From NCBI GenBank assembly GCA_005885555.1, contig VAWN01000021.1:65884-129883 (forward strand): DNA of 64,000 nucleotides, written 5' to 3'. The position numbers and the translations under genes were made by a program. Origin of the DNA: Actinomycetota bacterium (GTDB taxonomy: Bacteria > Actinomycetota > Actinomycetes > Mycobacteriales > Micromonosporaceae). Below are positions 1-6,350 of this stretch, one piece after another; within the stretch, counting starts at the first letter, position 1; the number at the start of each line of letters is the position of its first letter. Below the pieces are notes generated by a model. It was not told the origin of the DNA and did not search any database. It saw only the letters and a program-made list of their open reading frames with translations.

Positions 1-785
1 GGGCCTCCCCGCCGGACGCCTGCTCGATCGGCTGCGGCGTCGCGGTCTGCGGCATGGTCCGGCGCGCGGACGGCATGGTCCGGCTCGGCCCGCACGCCGA
101 CTGGGCCGACGCGCCGCTCGGGTCGGCGCTGGCCGAGGTGCTCAACGTGGACCTGCCGATCATGCTCGGCAACGCCGCCGACCTGGCCGCGCTCGCCGAG
201 CACACCCGCGGCGCCGCGATCGACTCCGACAACGTCGTGTACCTGCACGGCGACGTCGGTATCGGCGGCGGCATCATCGCCGGTGGGCGGCCGGTGGCCG
301 GGCACGGCGGGTACGGCGGCGAGGTCGGCCACATGGTGGTGAACCCGAACGGGCGGCCCTGCCTGTGCGGCTCGCGCGGCTGCTGGGAGACCGAGATCGG
401 CGAGCACGCGCTGCTGCGGGCGGCCAACCGGGACGGTACCGGGCGCGACGGCATCCTCGCCGTCGTCGACGCGGCCGCCCGGGGGGACGCGGTCGCCCAG
501 GCCGCCGTCCGGCAGGTCGGCGACTGGCTCGGGTTCGGCGTGGCGAACCTGGTGAACATCTTCAACCCGGAGACCGTCGTGTTCGGCGGTACCCTGCGCG
601 ACGTGTACCTCGCCTCCGCGGCCCAGGTACGCAGCCGGATCAACCGCAACGGGCTGCCCGCCTGCCGGGAACACGTCCGGCTGCGTACCCCCGAGCTCGG
701 CGACGACGCCCCGCTGCTGGGCGCCGCCGAACTGGCCTTCCAGCGGCTGCTCGCCGACCCGCTGGACGCGGGTACCGCGGCGTGA
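1..785 (+). CDS. ROK family sugar kinase / transcriptional repressor, C-terminal part
   Basis: The reading frame is open from the left edge of the window, so the start and any N-terminal winged helix lie upstream. Visible motifs are the glycine-rich ATP-binding stretch DVGIGGGIIAGG and the ROK zinc signature, a CxCGxxGCxE pattern seen as CLCGSRGCWE just after GHMVVNPNGRP. ROK proteins are either glucokinase-like kinases or sugar-responsive repressors of the NagC/Xyl type; without the N-terminus I cannot tell which. The stop codon overlaps the GTG of the next gene (GTGA), so the two are probably translated from one message. Confidence 0.85.
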   Translation, partial: ASPPDACSIGCGVAVCGMVRRADGMVRLGPHADWADAPLGSALAEVLNVDLPIMLGNAADLAALAEHTRGAAIDSDNVVYLHGDVGIGGGIIAGGRPVAGHGGYGGEVGHMVVNPNGRPCLCGSRGCWETEIGEHALLRAANRDGTGRDGILAVVDAAARGDAVAQAAVRQVGDWLGFGVANLVNIFNPETVVFGGTLRDVYLASAAQVRSRINRNGLPACREHVRLRTPELGDDAPLLGAAELAFQRLLADPLDAGTAA

Positions 786-1939
786 TCGACGAGTTGCGCA
801 CGCCGCCCGGGGAGGCGGCGCTGGTGCTCGCGTCGTCGCTCGGGGCCGCCGATCCGCTCGCCGCGGCGGCGGCGCTGCGCCGGCACGGCGTCCCGGCCGA
901 CCTGGCCGCCGCCGCGCTGACCCAGGCCGAACTGCGGCGCCGGGCGGTCGCCAAGTTCGGCCCGGACGCCGCGCGGATGTTCTTCACGCGGGCGGGGCTG
1001 GAGCAGGCGACGCGGGTACCGGTGGCGGACCGGCGGGCCGCCCGGCTCAGCGCGGCCGGCGTCCGGTCGGTCGCCGACCTCGGTTGCGGTATCGGCGCGG
1101 ACACCCTGGCGTTCGCCCGGGCCGGCATCCGGGTCCTGGCGGTCGAGGCCGACCCGCCGACCGCGTCGGTCGCCGCCGCCAATGCCGCGGTACTGGGGCT
1201 GGCCGGCCTGGTCGAGGTGCGGTGCGCCGACGCCCGCGCGGCCGACCTGTCCGGGGTCGACGCGGTGTTCTGCGATCCGGCACGCCGCCGGGGTACCGGC
1301 CGGGTGTTCGACCCGCGCGCCTGGTCGCCGTCGTGGGACTTCGTCGCGGCGCTGCCCGGCCGGGTACCGGCGACGGTCCTCAAGCTGGCTCCGGGTACCG
1401 ATCACGCGCTGATCCCGGCCGGCGCCGAAGCGGAGTGGGTGTCGGTGGACGGCGACGTGGTGGAGGCGGCGTTCTGGTGCGGCCCGCTGGCCGAGGTACC
1501 CCGGCGGGCTTCCCTGCTGCCGTCGCGCGCGGTGCTGACCGGGTCGGGTGTCGTGGCGGCCCCGGTCGGGCCGGTGCGCCGGTACCTGTTCGATCCGGAC
1601 GGCGCGGTGGTGCGCGCGCACCTCGTGGCGGAGTTCGCGGCGACCGTGGACGGTACCCTCGCCGACCCGCAGATCGCCTACGTGTACAGCGACGCGCCGG
1701 CCGCCACGCCGTTCGCGCGCCGGTACGAGGTGCTGGACGTGCTGCCGTTCTCGGTCAAGCGGCTGCGCGCGGTGCTGCGGGAGCGCGGCACCGGCCGGCT
1801 GACGGTGAAGAAGCGCGGTTCGCCGGTTGACCCCGACCAGTTGCGTACCGCGATGCGCCTGTCCGGAACGGCGGAGGCGACGGTGGTGCTGACCCGGGTC
1901 GCCGGCGCGCCGACCGCACTGCTGGTCGAGCCGGGCTGA
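782..1939 (+). CDS. Class I SAM-dependent methyltransferase with THUMP-like domain
   Basis: This 385-residue protein starts at a GTG that overlaps the upstream TGA. A longer in-frame reading upstream is only a shadow of the ROK gene. The SAM-binding motif I is VADLGCGIGADTLAFARAG, followed by an acidic motif II (VLAVEADP) and a motif IV-like CDPARR. The C-terminal third (LTVKKRGSPVDPDQLR onward) resembles the THUMP-like domain of actinobacterial methyltransferases thought to act on RNA. The substrate is unknown. Its stop codon is the first base triplet of a 15-bp tandem repeat. Confidence 0.85.
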   Translation: MIDELRTPPGEAALVLASSLGAADPLAAAAALRRHGVPADLAAAALTQAELRRRAVAKFGPDAARMFFTRAGLEQATRVPVADRRAARLSAAGVRSVADLGCGIGADTLAFARAGIRVLAVEADPPTASVAAANAAVLGLAGLVEVRCADARAADLSGVDAVFCDPARRRGTGRVFDPRAWSPSWDFVAALPGRVPATVLKLAPGTDHALIPAGAEAEWVSVDGDVVEAAFWCGPLAEVPRRASLLPSRAVLTGSGVVAAPVGPVRRYLFDPDGAVVRAHLVAEFAATVDGTLADPQIAYVYSDAPAATPFARRYEVLDVLPFSVKRLRAVLRERGTGRLTVKKRGSPVDPDQLRTAMRLSGTAEATVVLTRVAGAPTALLVEPG

Positions 1940-1981
1940 TCCGTCGACGCTTGATCCGTCGAGGCCTGATCCGTCGAGGCT
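1937..1981. repeat. 15-bp tandem repeat, three copies, starting at a stop codon
   Basis: The unit TGATCCGTCGAGGCC occurs three times head to tail with two or three mismatches. The first TGA is the stop codon of the methyltransferase gene. Because the unit is five codons long, each copy places another in-frame TGA behind the first. It also overlaps the last bases of the convergent small gene. Confidence 0.9.
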
Positions 1982-2252
1982 ACGGGCGCAGGCCGGTGCG
2001 GGACAGGACGTGGTGGTCGTGGTGCATCTTCCGCCACGCTCCGCAGCCGAATGCCTTGAAGGCGCCGGTGCGCCAGGAGTGGTGCCCGGCGACCTGGTGC
2101 GCGGCCACCGCGGTATCGGCGGCGGCCCCGGCGGGCCGGGCGCACCGTGCAGCGCCCTGGCTCGCGAACGCGTCGGCCCCGATGGCGAGCGTCACGAGTA
2201 CCGTCAAGATCGCGGCCAAGATCGCGATCCAGCGCATCCGCCGGATCCGCAT
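1980..2252 (-). CDS. Small secreted or membrane-anchored hypothetical protein
   Basis: About 90 residues. The N-terminus is basic (RIRRMRW) and runs into a hydrophobic segment (IAILAAILTVLVTLAIG) ending in ADAFASQ, a plausible signal peptide with an AxA-like cleavage site. The mature part is small and rich in His, Gly and Trp, with a HH..HHDHH pattern and two cysteines, so metal binding is possible but unproven. A strong purine-rich site (GGGGAGGG) lies 8-11 nt before a GTG-ATG pair; I chose the ATG. It is convergent with the methyltransferase gene. I do not recognise the family. Confidence 0.5.
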   Translation of the reverse strand: MRIRRMRWIAILAAILTVLVTLAIGADAFASQGAARCARPAGAAADTAVAAHQVAGHHSWRTGAFKAFGCGAWRKMHHDHHVLSRTGLRP

Positions 2253-2341
2253 CACGTCTTTACCCTCCCCGAACATTTCCTTGCGGTTATCACGCTATGC
2301 CCTTCCGGCAATCGCGGTGTCCCCCGGCCGACTCGGAGTTC

Positions 2342-2347
2342 TACCCT
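2342..2347 (+). promoter_or_regulatory. -10 box (TACCCT) of a leaderless ybaK transcript
   Basis: TACCCT fits the actinobacterial TANNNT -10 consensus and ends six bases before the GTG of the YbaK gene. This spacing places the transcription start at or next to the start codon. No Shine-Dalgarno sequence is present. Confidence 0.5.
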
Positions 2348-2353
2348 TTCGGC

Positions 2354-2833
2354 GTGGCTGGCCAGGGAACTCCGGCGACCGCACTGCTCGCCCGGCAGAA
2401 GGTCGCGCACACAGTGCACGAGTACGCGCACGATCCGCGATCCGACTCCTACGGCACGGAAGCCGCGTCAGCCCTCGAAATCAATCCTGACCAGTGCTTC
2501 AAGACGCTCGTGGCAGAGGTCGACGGTACGTTGGCGGTGGCCGTGGTACCGGTCAGCGGCTCGCTCGACCTCAAGGCGCTCGCGGCCGCACTGCGCGGCA
2601 AACGTGCCGCAATGGCCGACCCAAGTCTGGCCGAACGGACGACCGGGTATGTGCGCGGCGGGATCAGCCCGCTCGGCCAGCGCAAGCGGCTGCCCACCGT
2701 GGTGGACGGGTCGGCCGTCGACCTGCCGACGATGTACGTGTCGGCCGGCCGGCGGGGACTGGAGGTCGAACTGGCCCCCGCCGACCTGATCCGGCTCACC
2801 GGCGCGACGGTCGCGCGCATCGCGGCCCACTGA
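2354..2833 (+). CDS. ybaK: YbaK/EbsC-type Cys-tRNA(Pro) deacylase
   Basis: A trans-editing hydrolase that removes cysteine mischarged onto tRNA(Pro) and works free in the cytoplasm. The 159-residue length matches the family. The hallmark segments are all visible: TPATALLxRQKVxHTVHEY at the N-terminus, FKTLVAEVDGTLAVAVVPVSG with the conserved lysine, LAAALRGKRAAMADP, and TGYVRGGISPLGQRKRLPTVVD. The GTG at 2354 is chosen because homologs begin just before TPATALL and a -10 box sits directly upstream. It is convergent with the ABC exporter genes and they share a hairpin. Confidence 0.9.
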   Translation: MAGQGTPATALLARQKVAHTVHEYAHDPRSDSYGTEAASALEINPDQCFKTLVAEVDGTLAVAVVPVSGSLDLKALAAALRGKRAAMADPSLAERTTGYVRGGISPLGQRKRLPTVVDGSAVDLPTMYVSAGRRGLEVELAPADLIRLTGATVARIAAH

Positions 2834-2855
2834 GCCCGCCGCCCCTACTCCTACT

Positions 2856-2932
2856 CGCCGATCTTGGACTTGTGGTGCCCGAAATGCTCGGGTAGGGGCT
2901 ACTTCGTGCCCGACACAACTCCAAGATCGGCG
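2856..2932. terminator. Long imperfect hairpin between convergent genes, GATCTTGGA type
   Basis: Perfect 13-bp arms (CGCCGATCTTGGA and its complement) continue after one mismatch into TTGTG/CACAA. The last codons and stop of the ABC gene lie inside the 3' arm, so the structure can serve as a bidirectional terminator. The arm sequence recurs in a second convergent hairpin at 10435-10484. There is no U tract. Confidence 0.7.
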
Positions 2933-4656
2933 CGGGCGGAGCCGTGCCAGGAGCGCCACAGGTCGGCGTACGCGCCGCCGGCCCCGACCAGCTCCGCGTG
3001 GCTGCCCAGCTCGGTGATCCGGCCGTCCTCGACCACCGCCACCCGGTCGGCGTCGTGCGCCGAGAACAACCGGTGGGCGATCGCGACCACGGTGCGGCCA
3101 CGCAGTACCGCCGCGAGCGACCGCTCCAGGTGCCGGGCGGCGCGCGGGTCGAGGAGCGAGGTCGCCTCGTCGAGTACCAGCGTGTGCGGGTCGGCGAGGA
3201 CCAGCCGGGCGAGCGCCACCTGCTGCGCCTGCGCGGGCGTCAGCGCGCGGGCACCGGTACCCACCGGGGTGTCCAGGTCGACATCGCCGGCCCAGTCGAC
3301 CGCGCGCAGCGCCGCCAGCACCTCGTCCCCGGTCGCGTCCGGGCGGCCGAGCGCGACGTTCTCGCGCAGCGTGCCCACGAAGACGTGGTTCTCCTGGGTG
3401 ACCAGCGCGACGTGCCCGCGCAGCTCGTCCAGCGGCAGGTCGACCAGTGACACGCCGCCGACCGTCACGGTACCGGTACGCGGCGGATGTACCCCGGCGA
3501 GCAGGCGCCCCAGCGTGGACTTCCCCGCCCCGCTCGGCCCCACGACCGCCAGCCGCTCGCCCGGCCGCAGCCGCAGGTCGATGCCGTGCAACACATCGCG
3601 ACCGTCCACATAGGAGTACCGCACGTCGCGCGCCTCGATCCGCTCGTCGGCGGCGGTCGCGCCGGACGCCAGACGGTCGTCGGGTACCTTCGACACGCCC
3701 AGCAGCCGGGCCAGCGACGCGCCGCCGACCTGCAGCTCGTCGAGCCAGGACAGCAGCCGGTCGAGCGGGTCGATGAGCTGCACGACGTACAGCGTCGCGG
3801 CGGTGACCTGGCCGAGCGTCACCCAGCCCGCGACCGCGAACCAGCCGCCGATGAGCAGCGTGGCGACCACCGGTACCACGTAGGACAGCTCGGCGACCGG
3901 CCAGCTGACGGTGCGCAGGAACAGCGTGTACCGCTCGGCCGCGTAGGACCGCGCGATGTCCCGGTCGGTGCGGTGGGCGCGCCGGTCGGCCAGGCGCAGC
4001 GCCTCGACCGTCCGCGCGCCGTCGACGGTCTCCGCGAGGCCGTCGGTGATGTCGGAGTAGGCGGCGTTCTCGCGGAGGTACCCGGCCGGCGCGCGGCGCA
4101 GGTACCACTTCGTGATGGCCACGAGCGCCGGTACCACGAGCAGGCTCGGCAGCATCAGCAGCGGCCCGACGAGCAGGATCGCGCCGACCGCGAAGCACAC
4201 CGTGACCACCGCGATCAGCGTCTCGGGTACCGCGAACCGCACGCTGCTGGACAGCGCGTTGACGTCCCGGCTGGCCCGGGTCAGTAGGTCCCCGCTGCCG
4301 GCCCGCTCCACTGTGGACAGTGGGATGGCGAGCATCCGGCCGATGAAGTCCTCGCGCAGCTCGGCCAGTACCCGCTCGCCCAGCCGCGCCGAGGCGTACG
4401 TGGCGAACCGCATCAGGCCCGCCTGCACGAGCACGAAGCCGCCGATGGCCAGCGCGATCCGGTCGACGCCGGCGCGGGTGGTGCCGTGCGCGACACCGTC
4501 GACGAGACCGCCGAGCAGCCGGGGTACCGCGAGGCCGGCGATCGCGGCGAGACCGTGCAGCGCGAGCGCGCCGAGCAGCGGGCGCGGATGGCGGCACAGC
4601 AGGGTACGCGCGTGCCGCCGTACCTCCGCACCGTCCGCCACCGGAAGCTGGTTCAC
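2899..4656 (-). CDS. ABC exporter half-transporter with active Walker motifs but degenerate signature
   Basis: The 585-residue protein has an N-terminal six-helix exporter domain (about residues 20-310) fused to an ATPase domain. The Walker A is GPSGAGKST, the Walker B is TLVLDEATS with its catalytic Glu, and the switch His is in AIAHRLF. The ABC signature, normally LSGGQ, is replaced by LTPAQAQQ. It starts at GTG after GGGGAGGATAC and overlaps the upstream partner gene by GTGA. The pair forms a heterodimer of the multidrug/lipid exporter class; the cargo cannot be read from the sequence. The gene ends inside a hairpin shared with ybaK. Confidence 0.9.
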   Translation of the reverse strand: MNQLPVADGAEVRRHARTLLCRHPRPLLGALALHGLAAIAGLAVPRLLGGLVDGVAHGTTRAGVDRIALAIGGFVLVQAGLMRFATYASARLGERVLAELREDFIGRMLAIPLSTVERAGSGDLLTRASRDVNALSSSVRFAVPETLIAVVTVCFAVGAILLVGPLLMLPSLLVVPALVAITKWYLRRAPAGYLRENAAYSDITDGLAETVDGARTVEALRLADRRAHRTDRDIARSYAAERYTLFLRTVSWPVAELSYVVPVVATLLIGGWFAVAGWVTLGQVTAATLYVVQLIDPLDRLLSWLDELQVGGASLARLLGVSKVPDDRLASGATAADERIEARDVRYSYVDGRDVLHGIDLRLRPGERLAVVGPSGAGKSTLGRLLAGVHPPRTGTVTVGGVSLVDLPLDELRGHVALVTQENHVFVGTLRENVALGRPDATGDEVLAALRAVDWAGDVDLDTPVGTGARALTPAQAQQVALARLVLADPHTLVLDEATSLLDPRAARHLERSLAAVLRGRTVVAIAHRLFSAHDADRVAVVEDGRITELGSHAELVGAGGAYADLWRSWHGSARADLGVVSGTK

Positions 4657-6350
4657 GTATCCTCCCCTCTGGTTACCGTGGCCGCGTAGCGCGGCTCGTC
4701 GACGAGCAGGTCGCGATGGGTACCGGTGGCCCGCACCAGGCCGCCCTCCACGTAGGCCACCTCGTCGGCCTGGTCGAGGACCAGCGGGCTGGTCGTGACG
4801 ACGAGCGTGGTGCGGCCCTCGCGGGCCGCGCGCAGCCGGCCGGCGATGCGCGCCTCGGTGTGCACGTCGACCGCGCTGGTCGGCTCGACCAGGATCAGCA
4901 CGGGCGGGTCGACCAGCAGCGCACGGGCCAGCCGCAGCCGCTGCTGCTGCCCGCCGGAGAACTCGCGGCCGCGCTCGGCCACCTGGGCGTCCAGGCCCTC
5001 CGGTAGCGCGTCGAGCACGTCGGCGGCGCTGGCCACGTCCAGCGCCGCGCGGATGTCCGCGTCGCCGCGACCGCCCAGCGTCTCCCGCAACGGGCCGGTG
5101 AACAGGCGCGCGTCGTTGTCGGCCACCAGGATCAGCTCACGCACGGTCGCCCGGTCCAGCTCTCGCAGGGGTACCGTGTCCAGCGTCGCCGCGCCGTCGC
5201 GGTACCGGCCCAGCCGGTCTGCCACGGCGACCGCCTCCTCCGGCGTGGCGGCCGCGAGCGCGGTCAACCGTCCACCGTGGACGGTCAGGCCGGACTCCGG
5301 GTCGGTCAGGTCGCCGCGTGGATCGGGCCGGCGGGCGGGGACGGCGGGGTCGGGCAGCTCCGGTACCAGTCCCAGCAGCCGCACCACCCGCCGGGCCGCC
5401 ACGTGCCCGCGGATGATCAGGTCCACGGCCTCGGTGAGCTGGCGCAGCGGCGAGACGAGGAACACCGCGTACCCGTAGAACGCGACCAGCTCCCCCGGCG
5501 TGATCCGGCCGGCGAGCGCGAACTGGGCGCCGAGCCAGGTCACCACGGTCACCACGATGCCGGGGAGGAGGAACTGCGCGGCTTCCAGGTACGAGTCGAC
5601 GCGGGCCACCCGGACACCGGCGGCGCGCAGGGTCTGCGACTCGTCGCGGTACCGGGCCGCGAACGCCGCCTCGCCACCGGCCCCGCGCAGCACGCGCAGC
5701 CCGGCCACGATGTCGGCGGCGCGGGTGGTCAGCGCGGCCTGCCTGTCGCGGTACGCCTGCTGGCGGCGGTGCAGCGGCCGGATCAGCAACGCAACGACGG
5801 CCATCAGCACCGGTACGCCGAGGACCACGACGAGCCCCAGCGGTACCGACGCGCCGAGCAGCAGCACCGCCACCACGACGATCGCCACGACGGAACCGGT
5901 GCCCCGGGCGGTGATGTCGACGGCGTCGCCGATGTGCCTGATGTCGGAGGTGCCGATGCTGACCACCTCGCCGCTGGCGATCCGCTTGGGCAGGGTGGCG
6001 CCGAGCCGGCCGGCCTGCCGGACGGTGAGCTGCATGGTGCGGTATGCGGCGCCGAGCCAGTTGAACATCGCGCACCGGTGCCGGAGGATGCCGGTGGCCG
6101 CCTGGACGCTGCCGAGGGCGAACAGCACGGCCGACCAGACCAGCAGGGCCTTCGTGTCGCGCGCGGCGACGCCGGCGTCGATCGCCTTGCCGATCACCGC
6201 CGGTACGAAAGCCTGGGCGACCATCCACACGATGGCGTACCCGATGCCGAGCAGGATGGTGCGCCGCTGCCGGCCAGCCAGCCACCAGAGGTAACGGCTT
6301 GCCGAGCGGTGATCGGGGACCCCGGGATCGGGTACGGGTAACGCACGCAT
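4653..6350 (-). CDS. ABC exporter half-transporter with degenerate ATP site
   Basis: Partner of the following ABC gene, about 565 residues. It has an exporter membrane domain followed by an ATPase-like domain. Where Walker A should be, the sequence reads HGGRLTALAAATPEEA, with no GxxGxGK[ST]. The Walker B is LILVEPTS, lacking the metal-binding Asp, and the switch His is replaced (VVTTSPL). The signature FSGGQQQRLRLARAL is intact. It would therefore supply the signature to the partner's intact Walker A, giving one working composite site. I chose the ATG at 6350; a GTG at 6386 would add 12 residues. Confidence 0.85.
   Translation of the reverse strand: MRALPVPDPGVPDHRSASRYLWWLAGRQRRTILLGIGYAIVWMVAQAFVPAVIGKAIDAGVAARDTKALLVWSAVLFALGSVQAATGILRHRCAMFNWLGAAYRTMQLTVRQAGRLGATLPKRIASGEVVSIGTSDIRHIGDAVDITARGTGSVVAIVVVAVLLLGASVPLGLVVVLGVPVLMAVVALLIRPLHRRQQAYRDRQAALTTRAADIVAGLRVLRGAGGEAAFAARYRDESQTLRAAGVRVARVDSYLEAAQFLLPGIVVTVVTWLGAQFALAGRITPGELVAFYGYAVFLVSPLRQLTEAVDLIIRGHVAARRVVRLLGLVPELPDPAVPARRPDPRGDLTDPESGLTVHGGRLTALAAATPEEAVAVADRLGRYRDGAATLDTVPLRELDRATVRELILVADNDARLFTGPLRETLGGRGDADIRAALDVASAADVLDALPEGLDAQVAERGREFSGGQQQRLRLARALLVDPPVLILVEPTSAVDVHTEARIAGRLRAAREGRTTLVVTTSPLVLDQADEVAYVEGGLVRATGTHRDLLVDEPRYAATVTRGEDT

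Follow-up and report, generated by a model that had tools for sequence, protein, structure and literature searches.

Does an ATP-binding cassette (ABC) exporter need ATP in both of its sites? The question is raised by two adjacent genes in a stretch of 64,000 nucleotides (the window) from an actinobacterium of the Micromonosporaceae (assembly GCA_005885555.1, contig VAWN01000021.1, positions 65,884 to 129,883). Each encodes an exporter half; the upstream half, A, has no P-loop, and the downstream half, B, has a degenerate signature. From motifs, relatives, a tree and single-chain models, we consider it likely that A and B are obligate partners in a heterodimeric ABC exporter of type I (type IV fold), which has one ATP site and one interface without nucleotide. 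P-loop-less A halves constitute a family whose distribution is widespread but patchy.

Two tandem exporter halves with complementary motif loss

The gene pair and the motifs read from it are as follows, in window coordinates.

4653..6350, minus strand: A half, the upstream half-transporter, a transmembrane domain (TMD) and a P-loop-less nucleotide-binding domain (NBD) that keeps its signature (open reading frame [ORF] and Pfam)
5211..5267, minus strand: segment replacing Walker A in the A half, LTALAAATPEEAVAVADRL, modelled as a strand, a two-residue turn and a long helix (sequence and AlphaFold single chain)
4947..4961, minus strand: signature FSGGQ of the A half, intact; it would complete the ATP site of the B half
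4884..4898, minus strand: Walker B remnant LILVE of the A half, with Asp replaced by Val and Glu kept; the D-loop PTSAVD follows
4785..4799, minus strand: switch (H-loop) region VTTSP of the A half, with the His replaced
2899..4656, minus strand: B half, the downstream half-transporter, 585 residues, GTG start (ORF)
3514..3540, minus strand: Walker A GPSGAGKST of the B half, intact
3229..3243, minus strand: signature LTPAQ of the B half, degenerate
3166..3180, minus strand: Walker B LVLDE of the B half, intact
3067..3078, minus strand: switch AHRL of the B half, intact

Both ORFs are open and lie in tandem on the minus strand, where the original prediction had placed them. Counted from the ATG at 6350, A has 565 residues; the ORF tool starts it at a GTG further upstream (577 residues), and residue numbers of A follow the 577-residue frame. 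The stop codon of A overlaps the start codon of B in the sequence GTGA, and GGGGAGG lies upstream of the B start. PF00664 (ABC_membrane) and PF00005 (ABC_tran) match both proteins above cut-off, giving each the layout of a type I (type IV) exporter half-transporter with TMD and then NBD in one chain. The ABC_tran match starts at profile position 1 in B and at position 40 of 137, past the Walker A part, in A.

The motifs, together with the late start of that match, bear out the original prediction that the 565-residue half has no P-loop, Walker B Asp or switch His and keeps FSGGQ. They also agree with its description of the 585-residue half, in which all catalytic motifs (Walker A, Walker B and the switch His among them) are present, with the exception of the signature, LTPAQ. 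One complete and one unusually degenerate site can be recognized, as had been proposed, but the statement that every element of the second had been lost was too strong: A retains the Walker B Glu (Glu501) and the D-loop (PTSAVD) along with FSGGQ. In another respect the list of losses was too short, in that A has also lost the A-loop aromatic residue and the Q-loop Gln. Retention of the Walker B Glu despite loss of the P-loop perhaps reflects a structural role. The reciprocal losses point to a heterodimeric exporter with a degenerate site.

The P-loop is missing throughout the A family

Across the window and 89 loci of the family, a P-loop is found in 0/90 A rows and 85/87 B rows; the two B rows without one, at L036 and L057, are partial matches. 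The B signature is drifting, with 33 different gap-free pentamers in the 87 B rows. In the set used for the tree described below, a loose P-loop match in one A row (L058, at 542 of 600) was taken as chance; it is C-terminal and far from the Walker A place.

For a broader count, ORFs were sorted into classes by hidden Markov models (HMMs) of the TMD alone before motifs were scored. ORFs whose best TMD score was below 60, or within 10 bits of the second class, were left unclassified. Also left out were ORFs that covered too little of the NBD (4 A-type, 22 B-type) and duplicates (2 A-type, 3 B-type), and P-loops were counted over the first 140 residues after the TMD. Among the rows so sorted, the window included, the A type has a P-loop in 0/169 and SGGQ in 167/169, and the B type has a P-loop in 146/146 and SGGQ in 0/146. 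Control classes keep the loop: 18/18 Ai and 9/9 Bi rows (a P-loop-intact, asymmetric actinobacterial pair), 15/16 BmrC-like rows, and 37 of the 38 rows of a mixed outgroup, in which L207|2-3631 lacks the pattern. Because the HMM training groups had been named with the P-loop known, and their rows were among those re-sorted, the TMD-only tree is the stricter control.

Position by position, the A type has lost what would hold ATP in its own site. The Walker A Lys is found in 0/169 rows and the A-loop Tyr, Q-loop Gln and switch His in 1/169 each, the A-loop place being weakly aligned, with a gap in 56/169; the Walker B Asp persists in 24/169. The signature Ser, Gly and Gly and the D-loop Asp are each present in 168/169. 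In the B type, the A-loop Tyr, Walker A Lys and Q-loop Gln occur in 146/146 each, and the Walker B Asp, Glu and switch His in 97, 95 and 94 of 146, the remainder being gaps where the fetched sequence ends short.

A wider scan of 80 named loci recovered a P-loop-less A-type ORF at 40 of them (L091-L129 and L143, 36-68% identity), in genera including Streptomyces, Micromonospora, Nonomuraea, Terrabacter, Cellulomonas, Kribbella, Amycolatopsis, Actinomyces and Glycomyces. The Micromonospora relatives show 66-68% identity. The remaining 40 (L130-L142 and L144-L170, 22-35% identity) are remote exporters of many phyla which keep the P-loop, except L130. At this locus, from an Oscillospiraceae metagenome-assembled genome (2938-4722), Walker A reads GSTGSGQST, with Lys replaced by Gln in an otherwise ordinary BmrC-like half. 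L130 was rejected as a P-loop-less relative of A, since this is a single substitution in a normal loop and the half falls in another class.

Searched with the A protein, 108/121 genomes of the family sample gave a match at E<=1e-60. With an A-half profile at E<=1e-100, matches were obtained in 106/121 genomes of the family sample, 110/246 of the class sample and 23/296 of the phylum sample; these counts include partial matches, comprise matches that were not individually inspected throughout, and miss divergent P-loop-less members, which score down to 259 bits among the matches inspected. All inspected matches above the score of this threshold are P-loop-less, and some P-loop-less ones score lower; the best P-loop-intact match reaches 315 bits (L233, E 5.5e-94). 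In another family of the same order, 0/19 listed genomes reach E<=1e-100, and two of these genomes hold divergent P-loop-less halves (L235, L236 and L252). An oddity of one isolated lineage was rejected on the strength of the wider scan and the matches in the class sample.

How widespread P-loop loss is, a matter that the original prediction had referred to comparison with other exporters, can now be answered from the 169 A-type rows, none of which has the loop; the same rows rule out a sequencing error that hides it. The suggestion that the loss goes beyond that of usual asymmetric exporters is upheld by the Ai and BmrC-like halves. "Extreme" is apt for the degree of degeneration and misleading if it implies a single decayed copy, as the halves belong to a widespread family under purifying selection.

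Two local variations were seen among these loci. At L120, L121, L124-L128 and L143, which belong to one subfamily, the B half is also without the usual D-loop (DEATAEAGSAG, for example), a segment which would face the empty site. At L104 (Streptomyces), L173, L175-L177, L179 and L194, a P-loop-intact half with ISAGQ lies directly upstream of the P-loop-less pair; at L104 there are two such halves, making four exporter halves in a row.

Order of loss

The tree was built from 113 halves, 31 A rows and 31 B rows among them, using TMD columns alone and excluding the NBDs in which the motifs lie. A and B are each found on one side of a branch with support of 100/100. Because the A halves form one clade in a tree that takes no account of the NBD, a single loss of the P-loop is enough. 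In A as in B, one and the same set of 14 loci separates from the remaining 17 (98/99 for A, 100/99 for B). Mapped on this tree, the A-loop, the Walker A Lys and the switch His require 1 change each, the Walker B Asp 4 and the Glu 6; the four changes of the Asp indicate that its loss was probably later and repeated.

The sister of the A/B pair is likely the Ai/Bi pair, with moderate support. On TMD columns Ai groups with A at 74/93 and Bi with B at 64/70; on full-length sequences, by a quick method with a midpoint root, the Shimodaira-Hasegawa-like approximate likelihood ratio test (SH-aLRT) gives 92 and 98, the first on a very short branch. If this grouping holds, the ancestor was already asymmetric, and the P-loop was probably lost in a heterodimer of that kind. 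An example of Ai/Bi, L201/L206, is present in the same genome as the window. Like A/B it has asymmetric motifs: the Ai halves have Asp at the Walker B Glu position in 18/18 rows and Glu at the Q-loop place in 16/18, and the Bi halves have SAGQ in place of SGGQ. Unlike A, the Ai halves are P-loop-intact, with the Walker A Lys and Walker B Asp in 18/18, an A-loop Tyr or Phe in 18/18 and the switch His in 17/18. Their motif state is a plausible halfway state.

Structure models and fold matches

AlphaFold models of the two proteins were examined as single chains, with no partner or ligand. The A model (mean predicted local distance difference test score [pLDDT] 87.9) has a strand at 374-379, a two-residue turn and a helix at 382-392 where Walker A would be, and this block scores 91-97. 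The B model (mean pLDDT 82.5) has a strand at 368-372, a six-residue loop and a helix at 379-386. The two-residue turn means that, in the models, the phosphate loop of A is absent, which is more than a mutation of its residues. By Foldseek, the best solved matches of A are chains of MsRv1273c, TM287 and TmrAB; homodimeric MsbA ranks eighth, and all of these are at 20-26% identity. The best solved match by sequence is a P-glycoprotein chain (8.9e-52), which also comes first with a profile.

Gene order, selection and neighbourhood

At 87/90 loci (window included), B follows A directly on the same strand, with a median gap of 26 bases between the matched parts. At 79 further A-type loci, a classed B half accompanies A in 62 and a B-like ORF too short to class in 15. 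Together with the deep split into 14 and 17 rows that both halves share, this gene order shows neighbouring, coinherited genes, as for a heterodimeric exporter; the order makes it unlikely that A and B fail to pair.

In three sets of relatives, the ratio of nonsynonymous to synonymous substitution (dN/dS) for the A NBD is 0.260, 0.242 and 0.397, against 0.349, 0.202 and 0.374 for the B NBD; the pairs pooled for these values are not independent, and in 15/16 loci the B NBD is truncated. Judged by these ratios, the A NBD is under purifying selection, about as the B NBD is.

A neighbourhood like that of the window surrounds the pair in 10/10 regions from the family and in 0/4 from other families. 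Shared neighbours in the family regions are an acetyltransferase gene (rimI, 10/10) and a tsaD-like gene (9/10), names that were read off without a family search. No substrate could be inferred from the genes next to the pair. In one family genome, the match to the B half is broken into two pieces (L267, 9574-11520), as though this half were interrupted.

Discussion

A working model of the A/B exporter can be drawn from these observations. A has lost the parts that would hold ATP in its own site and keeps those lent to the site of its partner, the signature and the D-loop, and B is its mirror image. Head-to-tail dimerization would then create one canonical hydrolytic site from Walker A, Walker B and the His of B and the FSGGQ of A. 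The second interface, between an A half without a P-loop and an xxxAQ-like signature of B, would be unable to clamp ATP and is expected to be empty. One ATP per cycle would be used at the single site, and the other side of the NBDs would be held or hinged by protein contacts in place of an ATP "glue". Candidates for keeping the empty side closed are the ADRLGRY helix, which is conserved in A, and the AQ-type segment of B.

The asymmetric heterodimer is supported by gene adjacency, the complementarity of the motifs, deep splits that run in parallel in A and B, and the control classes that keep their P-loops. Several observations weigh against it, or against details of it. At the Walker B catalytic position, the A type has Glu in 139/169 rows and Asp in 28/169, which is odd for a dead site. 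In their finer branches A and B do not run wholly in parallel (L085, L103 and L114 are placed differently), and a prior asymmetry depends on the moderate grouping with Ai and Bi. The structure models are of single chains, and the dN/dS values come from pooled and partly truncated comparisons. Adjacency fails at 3/90 loci, one of them at a contig end; at the other two, L049 and L051, B lies downstream of A on the same strand at a distance of 4.5-4.6 kb. Of the further A-type loci, 2/79 are without B (L097, at a contig end, and L238). Finally, nucleotide could bind at the A site in an unforeseen way.

This last point, that the degenerate site of an asymmetric exporter still holds ATP non-canonically, is the substance of one alternative, which we regard as improbable. 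It draws on the precedent of Pdr5, a fungal PDR full transporter and possibly such a case, in which all motifs of one site deviate and the affinity of the degenerate site for MgATP is given as comparable to that of the canonical one, in a sentence of the source that perhaps sums up several transporters (PMC7756269), and on the catalytic position of Walker B, which is acidic (Glu or Asp) in 167/169 A rows. However, Walker A of Pdr5 is altered by a residue change, whereas in A the loop is gone, replaced in the model by a two-residue turn and an extended helix, and the A-loop and Q-loop are lost as well. Alternatively, A might be a decaying or regulatory relic, with B working as a homodimer or with another half. 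The genome does hold other exporter halves, including the P-loop-intact asymmetric pair L201/L206, and an adjacent B is absent at 3/90 loci. But a B homodimer would be without a consensus signature in either site, because SGGQ occurs in 0/146 B-type rows, and it was rejected on this count; A, for its part, has an NBD under purifying selection, keeps its signature in 167/169 rows and shares its deepest split with B. The relic explanation as a whole seems very improbable. A draft genome of 197 contigs makes it conceivable that the assembly or the sequencing is at fault, or that A is a recent pseudogene. This explanation is refuted by the relatives, with a P-loop in 0/169 TMD-sorted rows from many genomes, by the open frames and by purifying selection in relatives, and we attach practically no weight to it.

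A heterodimer with one ATP site may also be set beside known transporters. In TM287/288, TmrAB and BmrCD, one half brings a good signature and the other a working Walker A, Walker B and His. The same split describes MsRv1273c/72c and A/B alike; in MsRv1273c/72c, Walker A is retained in the degenerate half and binds ATP, and both sites clamp ATP, which serves as glue at the degenerate one (PMC12038006), whereas the A type has lost Walker A (P-loop in 0/169), the A-loop and the Q-loop. For ABCC1 and ABCC7, ATP is described as staying at the degenerate site over many cycles, and the same model is given for TM287/288 (PMC7756269). A hallmark of a degenerate half, as phrased in one source, is the absence of the catalytic Walker B Glu (PMC7544095); A departs from it, with Glu in the window and in 139/169 rows. 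Pdr5 resembles A/B in that every motif of one site deviates: its Walker A Lys is Cys, the Walker B Glu is Asn, the His is Tyr and the signature is LNVEQ (PMC7756269). It differs in being a single chain of the order NBD-TMD-NBD-TMD with a residue change in Walker A (PMC7756269), and A/B consists of two TMD-NBD chains, one of which has lost the loop. Judged by its motifs, the A/B family goes further than MsRv1273c/72c, ABCC1 and ABCC7, TM287/288 and Pdr5: the loop itself is lost. We found no report of an exporter half without a P-loop in the open-licence literature, which is weak evidence of absence. StrV/StrW of Streptomyces might conceivably belong to the same family.

The function newly acquired by degenerate sites is called unclear in a review that argues from the sequence conservation of these sites and allows that ATP may be a permanent glue in them (PMC7756269). 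We lean towards the view that the A/B pairs are a large natural family of one-ATP exporters, whose degenerate interface was remodelled so that it closes free of nucleotide and the ATP "glue" has become dispensable; the P-loop would have been lost once, in the Actinomycetota, after which the remainder of that site drifted while the elements contributed to the working site were kept unchanged. Seemingly unable to bind ATP at the degenerate site, with a drifting signature opposite, and yet kept across many actinobacteria, the family offers a natural test of whether ATP is needed in both sites and makes the role of ATP at degenerate sites testable in one transporter. It also offers an order of decay, and the same genome supplies a related pair with intact P-loops as a comparison. 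If this interpretation is true, the ATP "glue" at the second site would be dispensable in the lineage of P-loop-less A halves.

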